Source: Selaginella tamariscina | Lineage: Eukaryota > Streptophyta > Lycopodiopsida > Selaginellales > Selaginellaceae | Reading direction: 5' to 3' | Length of the DNA stretch: 64,000 nt | NCBI GenBank assembly: GCA_003024785.1 | Contig: PUQB01000679.1 | Span: forward strand, 51,091-115,090 | Shown: positions 1,398 through 10,710 of the stretch, piece by piece | Position numbering within the stretch: the first letter of the stretch is position 1 | How the letters are laid out: every line of letters starts with the position of its first letter | The notes under the pieces: generated by a model | The model's database searches: none | Told to the model about the DNA's origin: nothing | The model's input: the letters and a program-made list of their open reading frames with translations, nothing else | Translations under genes and position numbers: made by a program

Positions 1398-1502
1398 GAG
1401 GATTGGCAAAAACCGGGCTTCGTACAACGGGCTTTTCGCATATTCCCCAATATCCAGGAATATTCTATCAAATAAAGGGAATATTCTAGAATATTCTGCC
1501 AA
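1398..1502. repeat. Left terminal inverted repeat and subterminal AATATTC motifs
   Basis: Reads GAGGATTGGCAAAAACCGGG inward, then GGGCTTTTCGC and repeated GGAATATTCT. It pairs imperfectly with the reverse complement of 9195-9306. The first ~55 bp are the best matching part; the inner AATATTC block is a loose subterminal repeat. Confidence 0.6.
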
Positions 1503-1531
1503 GTAGATTATCTTTAACTTTCATTATAAAA

Positions 1532-1591
1532 TGCCGACCAACAAGTGAAAAACGCTAATTATTTTGCCGACTAGACTTTACTATACCGACT
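1532..1591. promoter_or_regulatory. Left subterminal CCGAC(T) half-sites
   Basis: Three copies lie at about 1532 (TGCCGAC), 1565 (TGCCGACT) and 1585 (ACCGACT). Each equals half of the palindrome GTCGGCATGCCGAC that is arrayed at 5270-5686. A matching half-site lies at the other end of the element (9180-9187). That a single element-encoded protein binds all of these is inference. Confidence 0.4.
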
Positions 1592-1699
1592 AAACTTAAA
1601 AAGTCGCAGGTTTGACATTGCGCTTGCAACCAACCAATAACCGATGCACTTCTGCTGGAGTAAGGGTCCGCCTCTGTAAGAAGTAAGTAATCGTTGGGT

Positions 1700-4600
1700 C
1701 TAATCCAAGAACATGAGTGTACACAAATACATGTGTTGGCAGGGGCTCCAGTTCTTGGCTTTCTGAAAAGTTGCACAAGTGCATGACGGAACAGCAGAAA
1801 TTGTTACCTTAGCAGATTGCATGCCTGCAGAGACAATGAAGGCCTCAGTCTTCCCTCTTTGAACCACCTCCACGTTGTTGATCCGACCTTGAAGAATTTT
1901 TGCCTGGTTGTAATGTTTCTCATGTTCCTTGAACATTCTTGTTGGTGTTCGCACACTCCGTCCATGGTATGTTGGTACTCTATGTGCTCCCTCTCCTCTT
2001 GGTGGTGATGGTGTTCGATCCATTCGGCTACTACTGTCGTCTACCATTTCTTCAAATCCCTCCAACTTGAATCCTGCTTTCAGAAGAGCTTCAACCTCAT
2101 TTGCATTCAAGTTTGTTCCTTTTTGAATTGGCCAAACCTCTGGAACTTCTGGAATACTCTCAGGAGGAATCCCTGCATATGGTCGTCTGAAGCAACAAGA
2201 ATCGCGTGGGCAGAACCATAGCATCTGATGAGTGAACTCAATGTTCCCAAATGCATTTGTATATTGTCGTCTACCGTGAAATCCTGGTGCGGTACACGAT
2301 GTGGATATCCTATGGGTCTGCCACACTTGCTGTTACCGTCCTGAGTGAGACCTAGACATTTCACCTGACTTGCCTCCCCAATGCGTCTGATGGCCCACTG
2401 AGTCATCAACGTCTCTCTTTCAGTGACATTGACATCTTGAAACTTGAGTTTTTTTCCTGCGTGCATTTGGGATGACTGTTCTGCATATTGTGTGTCATGT
2501 CTATGTGTACGAAGTGCATCAATCCCATGGTCCCCAGTTGACGGTTGACGAATGGTTCGAACACGAACATTTGTTGTAGAGGCAAACTCTGGACTTGCAA
2601 GATGCTCTTCATCACTAACAAGATTTGCAAAAGTTGTTGGAGACACTAATTTTCCCGCTGAAAGTTTCTGCTGTGCACGTTTCAGAAGAGTTTCCATGGA
2701 AGGACCTGTGCCTGAATATCTCCCTTCAAATGATGCCTTGACCTTTGCACTTTGGAAAACAGCATCTGTTAAATCTAACATTGTTGCCTCCAACAAAGGA
2801 ACACGCTTCGTCAGCCTTGCTCTTCGTGCTCTTGCATGAACAACTTCGGAGTTGTTAGTGATAGGCACATTCGCAACACCATCTTCTGTCAAGTCAATTA
2901 TCTCTGTCATGGAAATATGATCTTCATGTCTTGCCCACCATGACAGCCATGTTTGCAAAGCGCTAACGTTACTGGACCTGCCTTCCCAAAATGACTCCAA
3001 CATTACTCGTCGTTCCAACTTATCTTGGTTGGTTAGTGCTGCAGGCCATGAGCGTGCAAGGTTCATGTGCTCCTCCCTGTGTTCCTCAAGTATCCACTTC
3101 TTTGTAACTTGACGCACTGACTGCATGTAATGGAACAAACAACTCTCTCATCTTTGACCCATTGTTGAAAACTTGATGCAATGCTAACCAAATTGCACCT
3201 GACTCATCTGACATGAACCCCCGCAAAGTTCACATTATGAAGTCCTTGCTTGCTGCACACTTGAAGCATAGTGTTCAAAAATTTGATCACCGCCACACTA
3301 TCCTCCCTGATCATGTCACCATAAGCAAGTGTCACCATCGACCTTAAACTGCACAAACATAAGTGCATTATATTAGTAAGTATTTTAAAACATAGATATG
3401 TTAATACTTACAATGGATCATAGAGATGTATTCCCAGTGTACACCAATCATCAATACGATATGTGTGGTCTAGCACCACCCACTGCTGTTCGAGATCACC
3501 TCCAGATTGACACCTTCTAATGTAGTCTATTCCGGATCCTGGGCCGGCAACTGTCATTTTGAAGATTAAAGGCTGCTCTTCAGCTCCGTTGAGGTCCATT
3601 CCGGGTATGTGGATAACATGTATGAATGGGATTGATAGCTTCTTCTTTAACTGCAGAAGTCCTTCGTAACCTTCTTTGAAACGAGTGTCTGTTGTTCTAG
3701 CCTGAGATATCCATTCTCTTGTTCTACATTGGAAAGGTTAAGCATCTCCAAAAGGAAATAATAATTTTTTTGCTTACCGGCGGTGATTTGTGAGTGGTAG
3801 TAGATCTGACAGAACCTTGTCGTATGATACATCTCCAGAATCTGTTACCAGTTTTTCCAAAATTATATTGCGTGCTGCTTGAAACTCTATGACACGTTGA
3901 TTAGTTCTTGGGGTTGCAGCGACTGCTTTGTTGATTGTCTCCTTAGCTCTGTCTTTAGAGACCATGGATTCGGGTGGTCTACGTGGGTGTTGATGTTCTC
4001 CAAGATGGATGAAAAGCCTCGTGCATGTGATATCATCTGGAATTATGTAATATGCAACAACGGAGCATGTCTGCACTAGAAGGGGCTCATTGTTGCAATG
4101 CACACACTTCATTCCAAGCACTCTACCATCTGAAGATAACTGGACTTTATCAATGGTGCCCTTAAATTGGCAGTCATTTGCTTTCTTACTGAAGCTGATG
4201 AACGGACATGTTTCCTTTACGCATTTCATGTGGCCAATACATGAACTGCGACTAACACGAGCTGGAACATTCCAATGTGTTGTGCAGCGTTGAGTCCAGT
4301 AATCACACCCATCCTTCCTATTCATCCCTTTGTACTTGTCCTTCATTGTTTCGTGTGCTGGCAACTCGTAAATCACATTTCCGTTGCAATCTTCTGGGAC
4401 CTCAGCAACTTGCTGAATCGATGACGAGACCACCAGTTGCTTCCCAATCCTACATCTCTGACTATTGCGAAGTATTGTTACCATAGAATTGTCCCGATCT
4501 GTTGTCTCCAACCGGAATAGCGGTCCTTTGGAAGGAAGAAGTGTGTAATACACAAAACTGCTAGCTCTTGCCCCTTCTGGTTCTACCTCAACATTCGCAG

Positions 4601-4757
4601 CATCTCCACCAACAACAGACATCAAATGCAGCACTTTAAAAGATTGCCAAGGTGGAATGTCAAATGCAGACCTGAGATCTGTTTCAAAGACAAATGCAAT
4701 ACCATCTTCATCTGCAGGGAAGTCCTTGTCAACACCATTGTAGCTGATTCTTGCCAT
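1700..4757 (-). CDS. MULE transposase (zinc finger, MULE core, SWIM)
   Basis: The gene runs on the - strand from an ATG at 4757 (MARISYNG). Exon 1 (4757-3778) ends in a C-C...H-H finger (CVKETCPF...CVHC...HLGEHQHP) resembling WRKY-GCM1/FLYWCH DNA-binding domains. After a 54-bp intron, exon 2 (3723-3412) carries LDHTYRIDDW, a likely first catalytic Asp region. After a 63-bp intron, exon 3 continues with FMSDESGAIWLALHQVF and CLFHYMQSV, matching the MULE second-Asp and C...H regions. Near 1740-1800 is a SWIM finger, CTCATFQKAKNWSPCQH (CxC...CxH). It would cut and integrate the element at its inverted repeats. Frames shift near 3220 (G run), near 3150 and between 2110 and 2330, so the protein as read is broken. 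The C-terminus is uncertain. Confidence 0.75.
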
Positions 4758-4799
4758 GTAGCAAAAATGGAACAAACAAAAGTTAAAATTCAAAGACAA

Positions 4800-5269
4800 T
4801 GAACATATTACACACGATGGTTAATGTGTTTGTCAGTCGTGAGGCAATCATTTCATTGACAAATATTAAAAATAATATTAATTGCGTGCGTCTGGGTAGA
4901 AGAGTGAAATTAATTTACTGCGTCTGGGTAGGTTTTTTGTAAATTAAAAAGTTTTACTATGTACAAGTGGCGATCATGCATGCAATATGTTTACAGAAAT
5001 TAGGTTGGTTTTTAATTGATTTAGGGCGGCTAGGGTTTGCAATTAGGGCGGCTAGGTTTTGCAATTAGGCTGGGCAGCGAGGGCGGCTAGGTTTTCGTGG
5101 AGCAGCGGCGCATTTGGGGGCATAGGTGGAGCAAGTGTGGCTCCAGGGATTAATCACAATAGGCTTCCATTGAGGGGGTGAGTATTTTCTGATTTCTTCA
5201 TGATCTGCTCATGATCTTTTCATGATCTGTTCATCTTTTTACATCTCTTCACAGTTGCAAGAAATCCGA
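4800..5269. promoter_or_regulatory. Divergent intergenic region, transposase side
   Basis: Spacer between the two divergent genes. It contains repeated GGGCGGCTAGG(GT)TTTGCAATTA units (about 5024-5095) and TCATGATCT repeats (about 5190-5235). It presumably holds both promoters, but no TATA element can be assigned with confidence. Confidence 0.4.
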
Positions 5270-5686
5270 GTCGGCCTGCCGACTCGGACTGACTTCGTTG
5301 TCCGTCCCAGTCGGCAGGCCGACTGGGGTGGACTGTTCCAGATCCAGTCAACATTTTGACCGGGGTTGACTGTTCCAGCCCCAGTCAGCATTTTGACTAG
5401 GGTTGACTGTTCTAGTCCCACCTAGCATTTTGACTGGGCCTTGTTTCGTTCCCAGTCCCAGTCGGCATGCCGACTGGGCCTCCCTTTGTTGCCAGGCCCA
5501 GTCGGCATGCCGACTGGGACTCCCTTTGTTGCCAGGCCCAGTCGGCATGCCGACTGGGACTCCCTTTGTGCCAGTCCCAGTCGGCATGCCGACTGGGCTC
5601 CCTTTGATGCCAGTCCCAGTCGGCATGCCGACTGTTGTGACCAGTCGGCATGCCGACTGGGACTCTTCAGCAGTCGGCACGCCGAC
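5270..5686. repeat. Array of GTCGGCATGCCGAC palindromes
   Basis: Six exact 14-bp palindromes GTCGGCATGCCGAC start at about 5461, 5501, 5541, 5580, 5619 and 5644. Three one-base or near variants lie at 5270, 5310 and 5673. Three degenerate CAGTCAACATTTTGACCGG-like units lie between 5340 and 5440. In the core the period is 40 bp, with the spacer CTCCCTTTGTTGCCAGGCC; the flanks extend most palindromes to CCCAGTCGGCATGCCGACTG. The array sits directly upstream of the ParB-methyltransferase gene. It resembles an iteron or operator cluster rather than a random minisatellite, because the palindrome is better kept than the spacer. Confidence 0.85.
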
Positions 5687-5775
5687 TGTGAGGGCTAGTA
5701 TGTTTTTTTTTAATTTTTATTAAACATCTTTGAACATTTATTACAGTTTTTTGTTAAACCTTATTGCTTTTGTAG

Positions 5776-8700
5776 ATGCGCTCTTCACAACGTTTACAAG
5801 AAAAGAAGATGAAGGAGCCTACTGAGAGAGAAGCAGAAGCTAGAGCTGCAATTCAGAGAGGGCGTCGGGGTCGTGGGAGAGGAAGTAGGAAGCTGGCTGT
5901 GGTTCAGGAACAAGGACCTTCAAGTGATGCTCCAGTTGAACAGGCAAGCCAGCAGGACTGGTCAGGAGAGCAAGAGGATGTAGTTCAACCCCAACAAGAA
6001 CAATCAGACTTTGTTGAAGAAGTTGAGGATGATGTCTTACCACAGGAGACACAGGAGCAGACAGAAGGCACACAAGCCTCATGCGCAGTGACTTTGTCGA
6101 GTGACGAAGAGGATGAACCCAAGAGCAAGAAGAGACGACGCAAAGCTGCTGGAGATTCAGAGGCTGCTAAGAAGAAGAAGAAGGGGAAAGCAGAAGTGCC
6201 AGATAATGAGGAAGTTTACAACATTGCAGCCAGCATGCATTCGGAGAGTGCAGTGCGTCTTCTCGCGAAGATCACAATCCGAGAATATGGAGAGGCACCG
6301 GATGTCCCTATTTGCCGAATTCTGGGAAATGAGCAGGTGCGGAGAGTCAATCCAGCGGATCTGGAATCTTTGACTAGGAGTTTCAAGAAGGCAGTTGGTT
6401 ATTTGCGCAACACCACTCAGTTCATCCTTCAAGTTGGGGACCCCATGACAGATGCAGATCTGGCAGCATTGAGAAGCGATGAAGCGATGTATGCTCAGCA
6501 TTTGGCTTTTGAGGAGGAGCTTCAGTCCGACATGTTCCGGCAATGGGCACCAATGCTTTCGATGAAGAAGTTCATCTGTTGGGATGGTAATCACAGGCTA
6601 AAGGTGCTTCAGAAGCTGTACACAGAAGACACGGAAGATAAGATCAGTGGGCAGTGAGAGTGCGTTCAGGCTTCATCCGTGCTGGGGTCATGGATAATCT
6701 TCAGCTTGTGACAATGTTTCAGCAAATTAATAGGTAAACATAGTGACCTCTAGATCATAGGATTAACTAACTTCGAGCTTTTCAAATATGCAGTTCCTCC
6801 GCAACGGCAGTGCAAACCACACTGCCACATCTTCTGCTATCTGTGAAGACATGTTGCACCAGTGAGGAGGGCACAGCGAAGATCTTGGCCAGGCTCAGTG
6901 ACAAGGAACGAGATGACATAAGAAAGTGGAAGGAAAGCGCGACTGGACAACAAGCTTGGCATCCACTTCCGAATTTGATCTGTGCAAAGATCTTTTTTGA
7001 GGTACCATGTCTCACACTTATATCTTAGTTGATTACGTCTGTGAATTACAGAGTGAGATTGAGGATGATCTTGAGAAGGCTGCAAGGGCATCCAAAGGCA
7101 ACAAATACCAGGAGCAACAACAGGTCTACATTAAGCATGACAAGCGCATGATGAAGATCTTAGCCATCATCGATCCTGCATTGGGTGAAGAGTGGTTCGA
7201 CAAGGTGACCCAAATCACATGGAAACAATGCAGATGGATGGGGTTGGAAAAGCTGTACGCGCTTTCAAGGGCGAGAATTCCAAACGAGACGAGAATCATG
7301 TACTTCAATAAACTGGTACGTCTCGATCTGAAGAGAGAGCAAGAGACACTTGGATTGCCGGGTGTTCAGGATAAGGAGTGGATAAGGTGGTTTACTATCG
7401 ATTTGTATTGGCGGGCAATCAGAGAGGAGGCAGTACAGATTCTCACGGGACTCATCGAGGATGGCGAGTGGAGCAGGCCGGTTACAGATTTCACGACTTG
7501 GTGCGATGAAGTGCGGGTAAAATGCAAGAACGTGATGTTCCAGCCATTCCATGAGTGTGTGAAGTTCACTTACTCCATAGAGCCGAAAGAGTTCCTCGAA
7601 CACGAAGAGACAGCAAGAAGGATGATTTGGAGGTAAGGATGATCTTCTTGACATTGTTACATTCTGACACTACTATATGTTCATTACAGGTATGTCGCAG
7701 CGAGAAAGGTGCCTCACACACAGACTATGGTATTCTGGTCAGATTACATGGAAGCACCACACATGTGGTCGAAGACAAGATCTGGCCTGACAGAGTTCGA
7801 GCGTGTACACGTACCGTTCTGGCTTGATTATCCACCTGGGCAACCACCAACATGGGAGAAGGATCTCTACAATGAACACTCAAAAGATCTCCCATGCATC
7901 TCATGGGATCCGGCAGAGGTCGACTTCATTAAGAAGACAAAGGCCAAGGCAAAGCGGCGTCAGCCTGTGCAGCAGTCAAAGAAGACCTCAGATACAGTAG
8001 CTGGCACCTCCACTACTCGCGATCCAGCTGCCTTCTTCAATTTATCTGAAGTGCTACCATCGCAGGGAACCATGGACATCAAGGATGACTTGGTCACATT
8101 CGTCCCTTCACTTGCTACAACTCGAGGTGATAATTTCTTGGCGATTGATGACATCGAGGAGATGCAACAGGCCGTGCTCACGGATGAGAAGGAAGAGGAG
8201 GTTCCTGACGCTAGACTGGTTCCTTATAGAAAAGTTCAGACACAGGTGGCCAGGTACCATACAGCTGACAGCCAGACTCGCTACCAGCATATTGCGGGAG
8301 AATATGGTTTCAACTTGGTGATCTTCGACCTTCCAAATGGGACCTTGCCAGGAAATACAACGAGTGATACGCCATACCTCTACCTTGATCCAGTGAAGTT
8401 CGATGAAGCACTCCAGTTTGCAGGTATGCATATGGCTGCAAATGGTTGGTTGGTTGTGTTTGCTGCAGCAAACACCTGGGATCAAGTTGTCCGAGCTGCA
8501 AGTGTGGTGGACCTTCAACTTGCTGCAACGTACTACATCTACAGAGGGCGTGGTTGGGGCTACCGCAACAAGATGAAGGTACTTTTTTCTTTATTCATGA
8601 AGTTCATTAATGATTTTGATGTTTTAACAGGAGAGCATCCTGCTCCTTCTTGTCTTCCAAGATGCATCTAGAGGATTGCGCGATAATCCACTGCGTTTGT

Positions 8701-9091
8701 CATCAACAATTCTTGTTGATAATCCTGAGCGGTTCCAAGAACATGGTAGGCATTTCATTTCAACAATTAAGTATTTACCATTATCTTCACATGCAGGATG
8801 GACTACCAACCGAAGAGCACTCGATTGATGCAGCTCGTGATAGAACGACTCACCCGGCCAGGTGATCTTATCTGGGATATAGGCAGTGGTACGGGGTCCT
8901 CAATGCTTGCAGCTATCGAGCTGGGGAGAAACATTGTTGGGACTGAGAAGAACCCTGAGCTCGGGAGAATTGCTATGAACAGGATTAAAGAGAACATCCA
9001 GCCAGAGGAAATCCCAACCCAACCAATAGCGACGTCAAGTAGGACTGGTGGTTCACGAATTGCAGCATTGCTCAATCGTAAGAAGAAGTGA
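5776..9091 (+). CDS. ParB-like domain fused to beta-class DNA methyltransferase, MULE-borne
   Basis: Six exons are read: 5776-6733, 6794-7001, 7052-7632, 7690-8578, 8631-8745 and 8797-9091, with GT-AG introns of 50-60 bp. The N-terminus is basic (RGRRGRGRGSRK), then acidic, with an NLS-like KSKKRRRK...KKKKKGK. A ParB/sulfiredoxin-like domain follows (ICRILGNEQVRRVNPADLES ... WDGNHRLKVLQKL). After a long middle region of no recognised fold comes LVIFDLPNGTLP (motif IV position), then QPKSTRLMQLVIERL and WDIGSGTGSSMLAAIELG with GTEKNPELGRIAMNRI (motif I and its following region). The IV-then-I order is that of beta-class N4-cytosine/N6-adenine methylases. ParB-methylase fusions are known from phages. 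One-base discrepancies occur near 6650 and at the exon 5/6 junction. The catalytic tetrad reads DLPN rather than (S/N/D)PP(Y/F/W), so activity is uncertain. TTTTGTAG just before the ATG could be a 5'-UTR intron acceptor. Confidence 0.8.
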
Positions 9092-9179
9092 CAAGTGTTG
9101 AATTGTACTCTTTGGTGTTGAAATAAAACTTTAATAATACAGTATAAACATGGCTATGATTAAATATTTTTTTGTTAAT

Positions 9180-9187
9180 TGCCGACT
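9180..9187. promoter_or_regulatory. Right subterminal TGCCGACT half-site
   Basis: TGCCGACT near the right end of the MULE matches the left subterminal motifs and half of the internal palindrome. A role is inferred from the repeated motif only. Confidence 0.35.
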
Positions 9188-9194
9188 GAGCCAA

Positions 9195-9306
9195 AATCCT
9201 AAATTCTAAGAATATTTAGGAATATTCTAAGAATATTCTGGTAGATTCTTTAGAATATTCCGGGTCCAAGCCCGGAAGCCCGGAAGCCCTCTTTTCGTCG
9301 GGACTC
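9195..9306. repeat. Right terminal inverted repeat
   Basis: In reverse complement this reads GAGTCCCGACGAAAAGAGGG inward, then CTTCCGGGCTTCCGGGCTTG and GGAATATTCT motifs, paralleling the left end at 1398-1502. Confidence 0.6.
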
Positions 9307-9315
9307 TTATGAACC
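9307..9315. repeat. Target-site duplication, right (TTATGAACC)
   Basis: Exact second copy of the 9-bp sequence at 1389-1397. Confidence 0.85.
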
Positions 9316-10304: not shown

Positions 10305-10485
10305 TTTGTATCGTGCATGGACAGTATATAAGAAGCAAAACAATTTTAAAGTACAATATGAACTTTGGTAAAACAAGTATATATCTTATAAATAATATAT
10401 GATATATTATGTTCTTTAGAAGCTGTATACACATGTACGTATTATACTGAACCATTTCAAATTTAAATATTAATTTGTTTGACAG
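10305..10485. repeat. AT-rich direct repeat, copy 2
   Basis: Second copy of the repeat at 1-245, same orientation and slightly shorter, again ending TTAATTTGTTTGACAG. Beyond that point the two sites differ. Confidence 0.7.
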
Positions 10486-10710
10486 ATTCTGCCAGCATCC
10501 AATAGGCTCCTTAAGTTGGCAGAATCTGTCAAACAGTTGAGGAAGCTTAAGATGGATCTTCTTCTTCTGGAACTCCTTTAGGTGCTGATCAAGAGCATTG
10601 GGGTGCTGGATACGGGTGAAGCAGCTCTTAGCAGCAGCTCTTTTGGGAGATCCAGCGATGTCAGAAAAGGCTTGGCAAGAAACGGGGATGATCGCCGAGG
10701 CAACTTTCAT
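10482..10710 (-). pseudogene. Fragment of an unidentified gene with presequence-like N-terminus
   Basis: On the - strand an ATG at 10710 opens MKVASAIIPVSCQAFSDIAG, which resembles an organelle-targeting start. About 70 coherent codons follow (KSCFTRIQHPNALDQHLKEF, LPQLFDRFC) before the frame runs into AT-rich repeat sequence. The 5' part looks like a real gene; the rest is missing. A 38-bp part (10518-10555) recurs at 14,642-14,682. The family is not recognised. Confidence 0.35.

Follow-up and report, generated by a model that had tools for sequence, protein, structure and literature searches.

The element described here occupies positions 1398-9306 (7909 bp) of a 64,000-nucleotide stretch of Selaginella tamariscina DNA (contig PUQB01000679.1; hereafter the window) and carries two divergent genes, gene 1 for a putative transposase and gene 2 for a protein with a ParB-like and a DNA-methylase-type domain. 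By analogy with VANC, the anti-silencing protein of Arabidopsis VANDAL elements, the gene 2 product may be an element-specific DNA-binding epigenetic helper, a reading that we hold with about even confidence. The two genes move together, selection has acted on gene 2, an array of palindromic sites lies between the genes, two regions of the gene 2 protein resemble known domains, and the arrangement recurs in a second, diverged family.

The 9-bp sequence TTATGAACC is present at 1389-1397 and again, without a mismatch, at 9307-9315 (chance about 7e-6, with the boundaries taken as fixed), confirming the exact target duplication of the original prediction, which had described a Mutator-like element (MULE) with a ParB-methyltransferase fusion gene. 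The genome searched comprised 300,702,823 bases in 1391 contigs, and the window copy was compared over its full length with four other complete copies of the same family, family A (L039, L040, L041 and L042). All four carry both genes and are about 98% identical to the window copy over nearly their full length, with one 496-bp piece of L042 at 95.8%. L040 and L041 have exact 9-bp duplications of their own at the same boundary as the window element, the flanks of L039 share 11 bp, so that its boundary is uncertain by a base or two, and the 9-bp duplication of L042 is exact only after a one-base shift. The element is young and multi-copy. The inverted ends that had been claimed were recovered only in a weak form: long terminal inverted repeats (TIRs) are absent, and the best inverted match, within a subterminal GGAATATTCTA motif, extends over 14 bp and was equalled in 1 of 500 shuffles.

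Gene 2 (5776-9091, plus strand) comprises six exons, at 5776-6733, 6794-7001, 7052-7632, 7690-8578, 8631-8745 and 8797-9091, with five GT-AG introns of 50-60 bp each. Read across copies, it encodes about 1015 amino acids, the window copy being frame-shifted near 6642 and 8741. Among the four other full copies, three carry a one-base difference at the first of these places and three at the second. Of 30 partial copies, 19 have an extra base near 6642, 10 (the window copy itself included) read like the window copy there, and 1 did not fit. Basic runs are present at the N-terminus; these runs and the divergent, intron-containing gene agree with the original prediction. Elsewhere in the genome, a piece of gene 2 exon 1 (C515:243293-244009, 93% identity) is part of an open frame of 1417 codons that contains a single TAG.

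The linkage between the two genes was counted across the genome. Gene 1 exon 1 gave 122 matches (122 of 1903 candidates scored), gene 2 exon 1 gave 136 at 73-100% identity (134 of 1492 scored) and the methylase exon gave 150 (150 of 739 scored); the count used the 122 gene 1 matches, 134 of the 136 gene 2 matches (two second-piece rows were left out) and 149 of the 150 methylase rows. Gene 2 exon 1 lay on the opposite strand at a distance of 1.5-2.5 kb from at least 81 of the 122 gene 1 matches, and the methylase exon at 4.0-5.3 kb from at least 79. At least 110 of the 122 had one or more gene 2 markers at divergent spacing, for which the single-match chance is about 0.0006. The other 12 had no partner in the scored lists and may be solo copies or have partners beyond those lists.

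A second family, family B, is represented by six loci (L047-L052) with diverged methylase exons, which encode a homologue of gene 2. Between the families (L047, L049 and L052 compared), gene 2 is most similar in the last exon, at 69-71% protein identity, followed by exon 3 (63-66%), the ParB exon (50-58%) and exon 4 (37-49%), and the gene 1 homologue of family B is 54-56% identical over the compared part of exon 1. The two genes are divergent in L047, L049 and L052 (three of the six loci), and L048 and L051 have no transposase within the stretch examined. No target duplication was found for L049 or L052. In L050 (C516:756200-761900) both genes are on one strand, which suggests that part of the element was inverted or that the copy is composite.

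For gene 2, synonymous sites are saturated between the families (pS 0.78-0.88) and pN is 0.20-0.43, in a count that omits stop codons and leans on pieces, several family B frames being broken; gene 1 shows similar divergence (pS 0.66-0.78, pN 0.29-0.30). Within family A, 30 copies of exon 1 show 4 distinct synonymous and 1 distinct nonsynonymous changes at 185 and 679 sites, respectively, although these copies, none of which was dropped, are the best protein matches and the count is biased thereby. The saturation of synonymous sites together with the conservation of amino acids indicates that gene 2 is, on these substitution patterns, a selected partner of the transposase and has been under selection since before the two families split. 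That gene 2 travels with the transposase is supported by the linkage, and neither of the two outcomes that would speak against the original prediction, absence of gene 2 from all other copies or profile searches with neither a ParB nor a methylase fold, was encountered: all four other full copies retain the gene, and profiles found a methylase-type SAM (S-adenosylmethionine) domain.

The second line of evidence is a set of repeated sites. Between the two start codons, at 5269-5687, lies an array of nine copies of the 16-bp palindrome AGTCGGCATGCCGACT (six exact and three with one mismatch; 0.05 expected). Its half-site, TGCCGACT, occurs 17 times in the 64-kb window, always within the element and always outside the coding exons (exon ends set by hand): 15 times in the array, once near the left end, 3' of gene 1 (1565-1572, plus strand), and once 89 bp past the gene 2 stop (9180-9187, plus strand). 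The 3' site lies 91-92 bp past the gene 2 stop in all four other full family A copies, and in all six family B loci a site follows the gene 2 match by 80-102 bp. Each of the 30 partial copies (that of the window included) has 2-11 exact palindromes, mostly spaced at 39-40 bp. Genome-wide, the palindrome occurs 1142 times and the reversed control not once; the first 50 sites fall into eight clusters, seven of which, by eye, lie beside gene 2 or methylase matches and one (C13) does not. The intergenic regions of L047, L049 and L052 contain 6, 7 and 8 copies of TGCCGACT, respectively, against about 0.03 expected, and L048 and L050 have the 3' site only. In a count of all k-mers, no 9-mer common to the intergenic regions of the window copy and L049 was more frequent than TGCCGACTG (14 and 7 occurrences, respectively), and blastn otherwise detected short stretches only between the two regions (best E 0.04).

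A different motif marks the ends. Palindrome clusters of GAATATTC lie at both ends of family A (1457-1497 on the left and 9203-9261 on the right in the window). In family B, L049 has one such cluster at its right end and another in its left region (L080), the latter beside two TGCCGACT sites, and L052 has one at its right end; the left-end stretch of L052 (L081) contains neither a GAATATTC cluster nor TGCCGACT. Family A and one family B locus therefore show the complete succession of GAATATTC cluster, TGCCGACT, gene 1, array of TGCCGACT, gene 2, TGCCGACT and GAATATTC cluster, despite the saturation of synonymous sites between the families. The left cluster includes GAATATTCTAGAATATTC (1479-1496), which we take to be a heat-shock-element-like motif of four units and which is the sole occurrence of its type in the window. 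These end motifs could be transposase sites or genuine heat-shock factor sites.

The N-terminal part of gene 2 contains a putative ParB-like domain (6193-6733, plus strand), which bears a WDGNHRL motif and includes an insert of some 45 amino acids. An earlier comparison with viral proteins chosen by their DGNHR motif was circular and was replaced by a set of eight phage proteins, taken from 33 phage records found by homology to one of those viral proteins; all eight are annotated as ParB or ParB-like, and none has DGNHR. When the phage profile was aligned by hhalign with the uncut domain of families A and B, the local score was 25.9 (Prob 16%) and none of 48 column shuffles was as good. With the insert removed from the query the score rose to 42.4 (Prob 91%, P 1e-6; again 0 of 48 shuffles as good), the 91% being dependent on a removal that was decided after the alignment had been seen. 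On this similarity the presence of a ParB-like domain in gene 2, as originally claimed, is put forward with moderate confidence.

The C-terminal region resembles N6/N4-type DNA methylases, the SAM-binding half (QPKS...WDIGSGTGSS; 8797-9091, plus strand) most clearly. The last exon matches Pfam N6_N4_Mtase (PF01555) with an E value of 7.5e-10 and 39.6 bits (cut-off 26.7), and also phage DNA methylase families, the best being phrog_67 (E 9.7e-13); NCBIfam models, including some for non-DNA methylases, matched only at scores far short of their cut-offs. SAM-binding motifs X and I are present and are conserved in family B, and an hhalign comparison of the C-terminal region of both families with five viral DNA methylases gave a local score of 95.1, which none of 32 shuffles equalled. 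Judged by these matches, the assignment of the gene 2 C-terminus to a SAM-binding domain of the DNA-methylase type is solid. The putative catalytic half (8315-8575, plus strand) has DLPN at motif IV, which stands opposite DLPY/DPPY only in the global alignment, where NLVIFDLPNG faces DLVLCDLPYG of Pseudomonas phage Lucjan.

Taken together, these features suggest how such a helper might operate. The transposase would act at the element ends, and the gene 2 protein would enter the nucleus, where its ParB-like domain would recognise TGCCGACT half-sites, which in family A are joined in pairs to form 16-bp palindromes. The array, which may be the binding site of the gene 2 protein and is at least a candidate for it, would be loaded in the shared promoter region, and the SAM-binding domain would then change or block the silencing state there. 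Both genes would stay expressed, and the benefit would be limited to copies that bear the sites.

The analogy with VANC rests on published work. VANC, which counters the silencing of Arabidopsis VANDAL elements (PMC10398659), binds a nine-base motif that is dense in the noncoding parts of its own element and brings about a loss of methylation, the number of repeats changing fast from copy to copy (PMC5735166); VANDAL TIRs are absent or degenerate (PMC6446971). The present element is likewise multi-gene, has poor or no TIRs and 9-bp duplications, and bears dense noncoding motif repeats that vary between copies. The comparison with VANDALs had been drawn in the original prediction and is strengthened by the repeated-site array, which was not mentioned there. 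VANC, however, is described without a ParB or methylase domain in the available text (PMC5735166), and its domains differ from those of gene 2. In addition, the motifs of VANC21 and VANC6 differ from each other, whereas TGCCGACT is common to families that differ at about one-third to one-half of their amino acids, and VANC21 motifs are in one orientation, whereas TGCCGACT is palindromic in family A.

Several results weigh against this role for gene 2. The transposase or a host factor, rather than the gene 2 protein, could be what binds the sites, and the single sites near both ends fit a role of the transposase. For the ParB-like domain, global hhalign with the uncut query gave a Prob of only 33%, the better local value is tied to the insert removal noted above, and the region has no match among Pfam (PF02195 included), NCBIfam or PHROG profiles. 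In addition, 18 viral loci matched a DNA pattern for DGNHR, and among the seven proteins scanned two matched ParB_N just below the cut-off, one DndB, one DUF1015 weakly and one HTH_ParB, while two matched nothing; because of these mixed matches, the motif is not diagnostic of ParB. For the C-terminus, the catalytic half alone scored 13.0 locally and 1.9 globally, values that 15 and 24 of 32 shuffles, respectively, equalled or exceeded. The catalytic motif of beta-class methylases is (D/N/S)PP(Y/F/W), and DLPN lacks its aromatic residue.

In the main alternative, the transposase or a host factor would bind the TGCCGACT array, which would then serve as an autoregulatory promoter or a transposition enhancer, and gene 2 would do something unrelated, such as integration, for which mudrB of MuDR is apparently needed (PMC6446971). 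The single TGCCGACT sites beside both ends, in addition to the intergenic array, favour binding by the transposase; on the other side, the ends have GAATATTC clusters of their own (both ends in family A; in family B, the right ends of L049 and L052 and the left region L080), and a dense array in the promoter region is what is seen for VANC targets. We regard this alternative as unlikely.

It is also unlikely, in our judgement, that gene 2 encodes a working DNA methylase, of the N6-adenine or N4-cytosine type, by which its own element is marked, as has been proposed for the gene of the algal transposon Sola1-1_Ec32 (PMC12477816). The PF01555 match above the gathering cut-off and the conservation of the SAM motif in both families would fit such an enzyme, but the catalytic half does not rise above shuffles, and motif IV reads DLPN not only in family A but also in the family B loci L049 and L050, where the region could be aligned. 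Because family B reads DLPN too, the change is old and has been kept, which suggests altered or lost catalysis; methylation by gene 2 is doubtful on this motif. Of the beta-class methylase core in the original prediction, the SAM-binding half was thus borne out and the catalytic half was not, and the idea that the protein marks element DNA by methylation found no support.

A further reading, tentative and also improbable as we see it, is that a eukaryotic transposon has acquired a nucleation system resembling that of ParB and parS, in which the gene 2 protein would load at the palindromic arrays and at the single sites near the ends and then spread or bridge over the element, its SAM-binding and possibly non-methylating methylase fold keeping the chromatin unsilenced or joining the ends. 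In bacteria, parS is a 16-bp palindrome, and the element shares with the ParB-parS system a ParB-like signature and clustered palindromes of that length; it differs in having no ParA and in the sequence of the site, which is not that of parS. Finally, passive capture of gene 2 as a host or foreign gene without function for the element, in the manner of a Pack-MULE, is very improbable: plant MULEs often capture fragments of host genes (PMC6446971), the window gene 2 is frame-shifted and some other copies have stops, but the linkage of at least 110 of 122 gene 1 matches and the purifying selection between families A and B led us to reject it.

The bacterial or viral origin proposed for gene 2 was not borne out by scans of its exons. 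The last exon and exon 3 found no relatives among viral contigs, exon 3 had no match among phage records, and the ParB exon had one at chance level (E 9). The last exon matched 277 phage records, mostly annotated as DNA methylases among the 15 matches listed. Against genome contigs, 76 of the best 80 of its 127 loci were titled Streptomyces, mostly matching over the SAM motif (approximately residues 13-66 of 97), and these matches were not used as evidence for origin. One viral contig, IMGVR_UViG_3300040801_004430 (L066/L071), encodes a single protein with the same order as gene 2, a WDGNHR stretch and an HTH_ParB match (19.1 bits, below the cut-off of 22.6) followed by a strong N6_N4_Mtase match, in which motif IV precedes motif I as it does in gene 2. 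This fusion differs in its intact DPPY and its weak HTH_ParB, and the middle region of gene 2 has no relative found in phages or viruses. No second viral contig with the fusion was found, and none of the 234 phage records that match it covers 80% of it, the methylase part being what matched among the 30 matches listed.

Gene 1 (1596-4760, minus strand) has exons at approximately 4760-3778, 3723-3412 and 3348-1596, with boundaries set by hand; its stop lies at 1700-1702 in the frame of the window copy and, by hand, at about 1596 in that of L041. The L041 gene has one open reading frame per exon, and the window gene is frame-shifted, with short indels at six places relative to all four other full copies, some of which, like some of the differences in gene 2, may be assembly errors. 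The protein ends in CTCATFQKAKNWSPCQH, a SWIM-like finger with the CxC...CxH pattern, and the Pfam SWIM profile matched the spliced L041 protein at E 0.025 and 14.5 bits, below its cut-off of 19.6. The same protein matched neither PF10551 (MULE DDE transposase) nor any other MULE profile. Against nine MULE domains of the same genome, 47 of 60 shuffles were as good in hhalign, a weak test in that several of the domains are near-identical; the best alignment falls at the expected D and C-H positions, though it is not significant. By eye, DHTYR, SDESGA and CLFHYMQ in gene 1 resemble what we take to be MULE motifs. Thus, of the MULE-type transposase with a SWIM finger that had been claimed, the motif resemblance stood, and profiles did not confirm it.

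The target duplications of MULEs are 8-11 bp long, usually 9, and those of the window copy and all four other full copies fall in this range (the edges of L039 and L042 being uncertain by a base or two). Duplications of 9 bp are given for several MULE groups (PMC6446971). Because of the 9-bp duplication and the motif resemblance, the label MULE-like is kept as an unproven one, and the element is most likely a cut-and-paste, two-gene, non-TIR MULE-like DNA transposon. The genome also harbours a separate, apparently young MULE family with canonical PF10551 (16 equal-score matches with open frames of 433-673 amino acids; loci L001-L008 on C102, C158, C169, C291, C447, C476, C593 and C715, and others), and three of its loci (L001, L003 and L008) showed no similarity to gene 1. 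In the DNA flanking the element, a PPR-like fragment was recognised by eye at 483-988, and within 10320-10500 a stretch near 10320 is a close repeat of the bases with which the window begins.

The original prediction knew of no description of this combination of genes, a statement that does not hold for transposons in general. In Ectocarpus, the 21.5-kb Sola1 transposon Sola1-1_Ec32 carries a ParB-methyltransferase gene on the opposite strand, and red and green algal cases are cited in the same report (PMC12477816, 2025). As in gene 2, a ParB-like domain and an N4/N6 methylase are joined in one protein (1104 amino acids, against about 1015 here) encoded opposite the transposase; this likeness is one of layout and domain description. 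The Ectocarpus element differs in being a 21.5-kb Sola1 of a brown alga, whereas the element described here is 7.9 kb long, has 9-bp duplications and a site array, and occurs as two families in a probable vascular plant. In the accessible main text of a MULE survey (PMC6446971), ParB, methyltransferase and Selaginella do not appear, and the available text of a study of adenine methylation across eukaryotes (PMC12695648) does not include Selaginella, lycophytes or land plants. No description of the element in a lycophyte was recognised in the literature searched, which consisted mostly of titles and abstract openings and lay outside most subscription journals.

The kind of helper gene is therefore already known, and what is new here is the 16-bp palindrome array, with its half-site near both ends and in family B. 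ParB-methylase transposon helpers, described from algae (PMC12477816), now extend to an apparent vascular-plant element with 9-bp duplications, in which the helper gene is present in two or more families that separated long ago and of which one is young and abundant. Our comparative analyses also name a concrete candidate binding site for the idea that transposons bind and epigenetically mark themselves, and sequence-specific anti-silencing may have evolved more than once, using different proteins.

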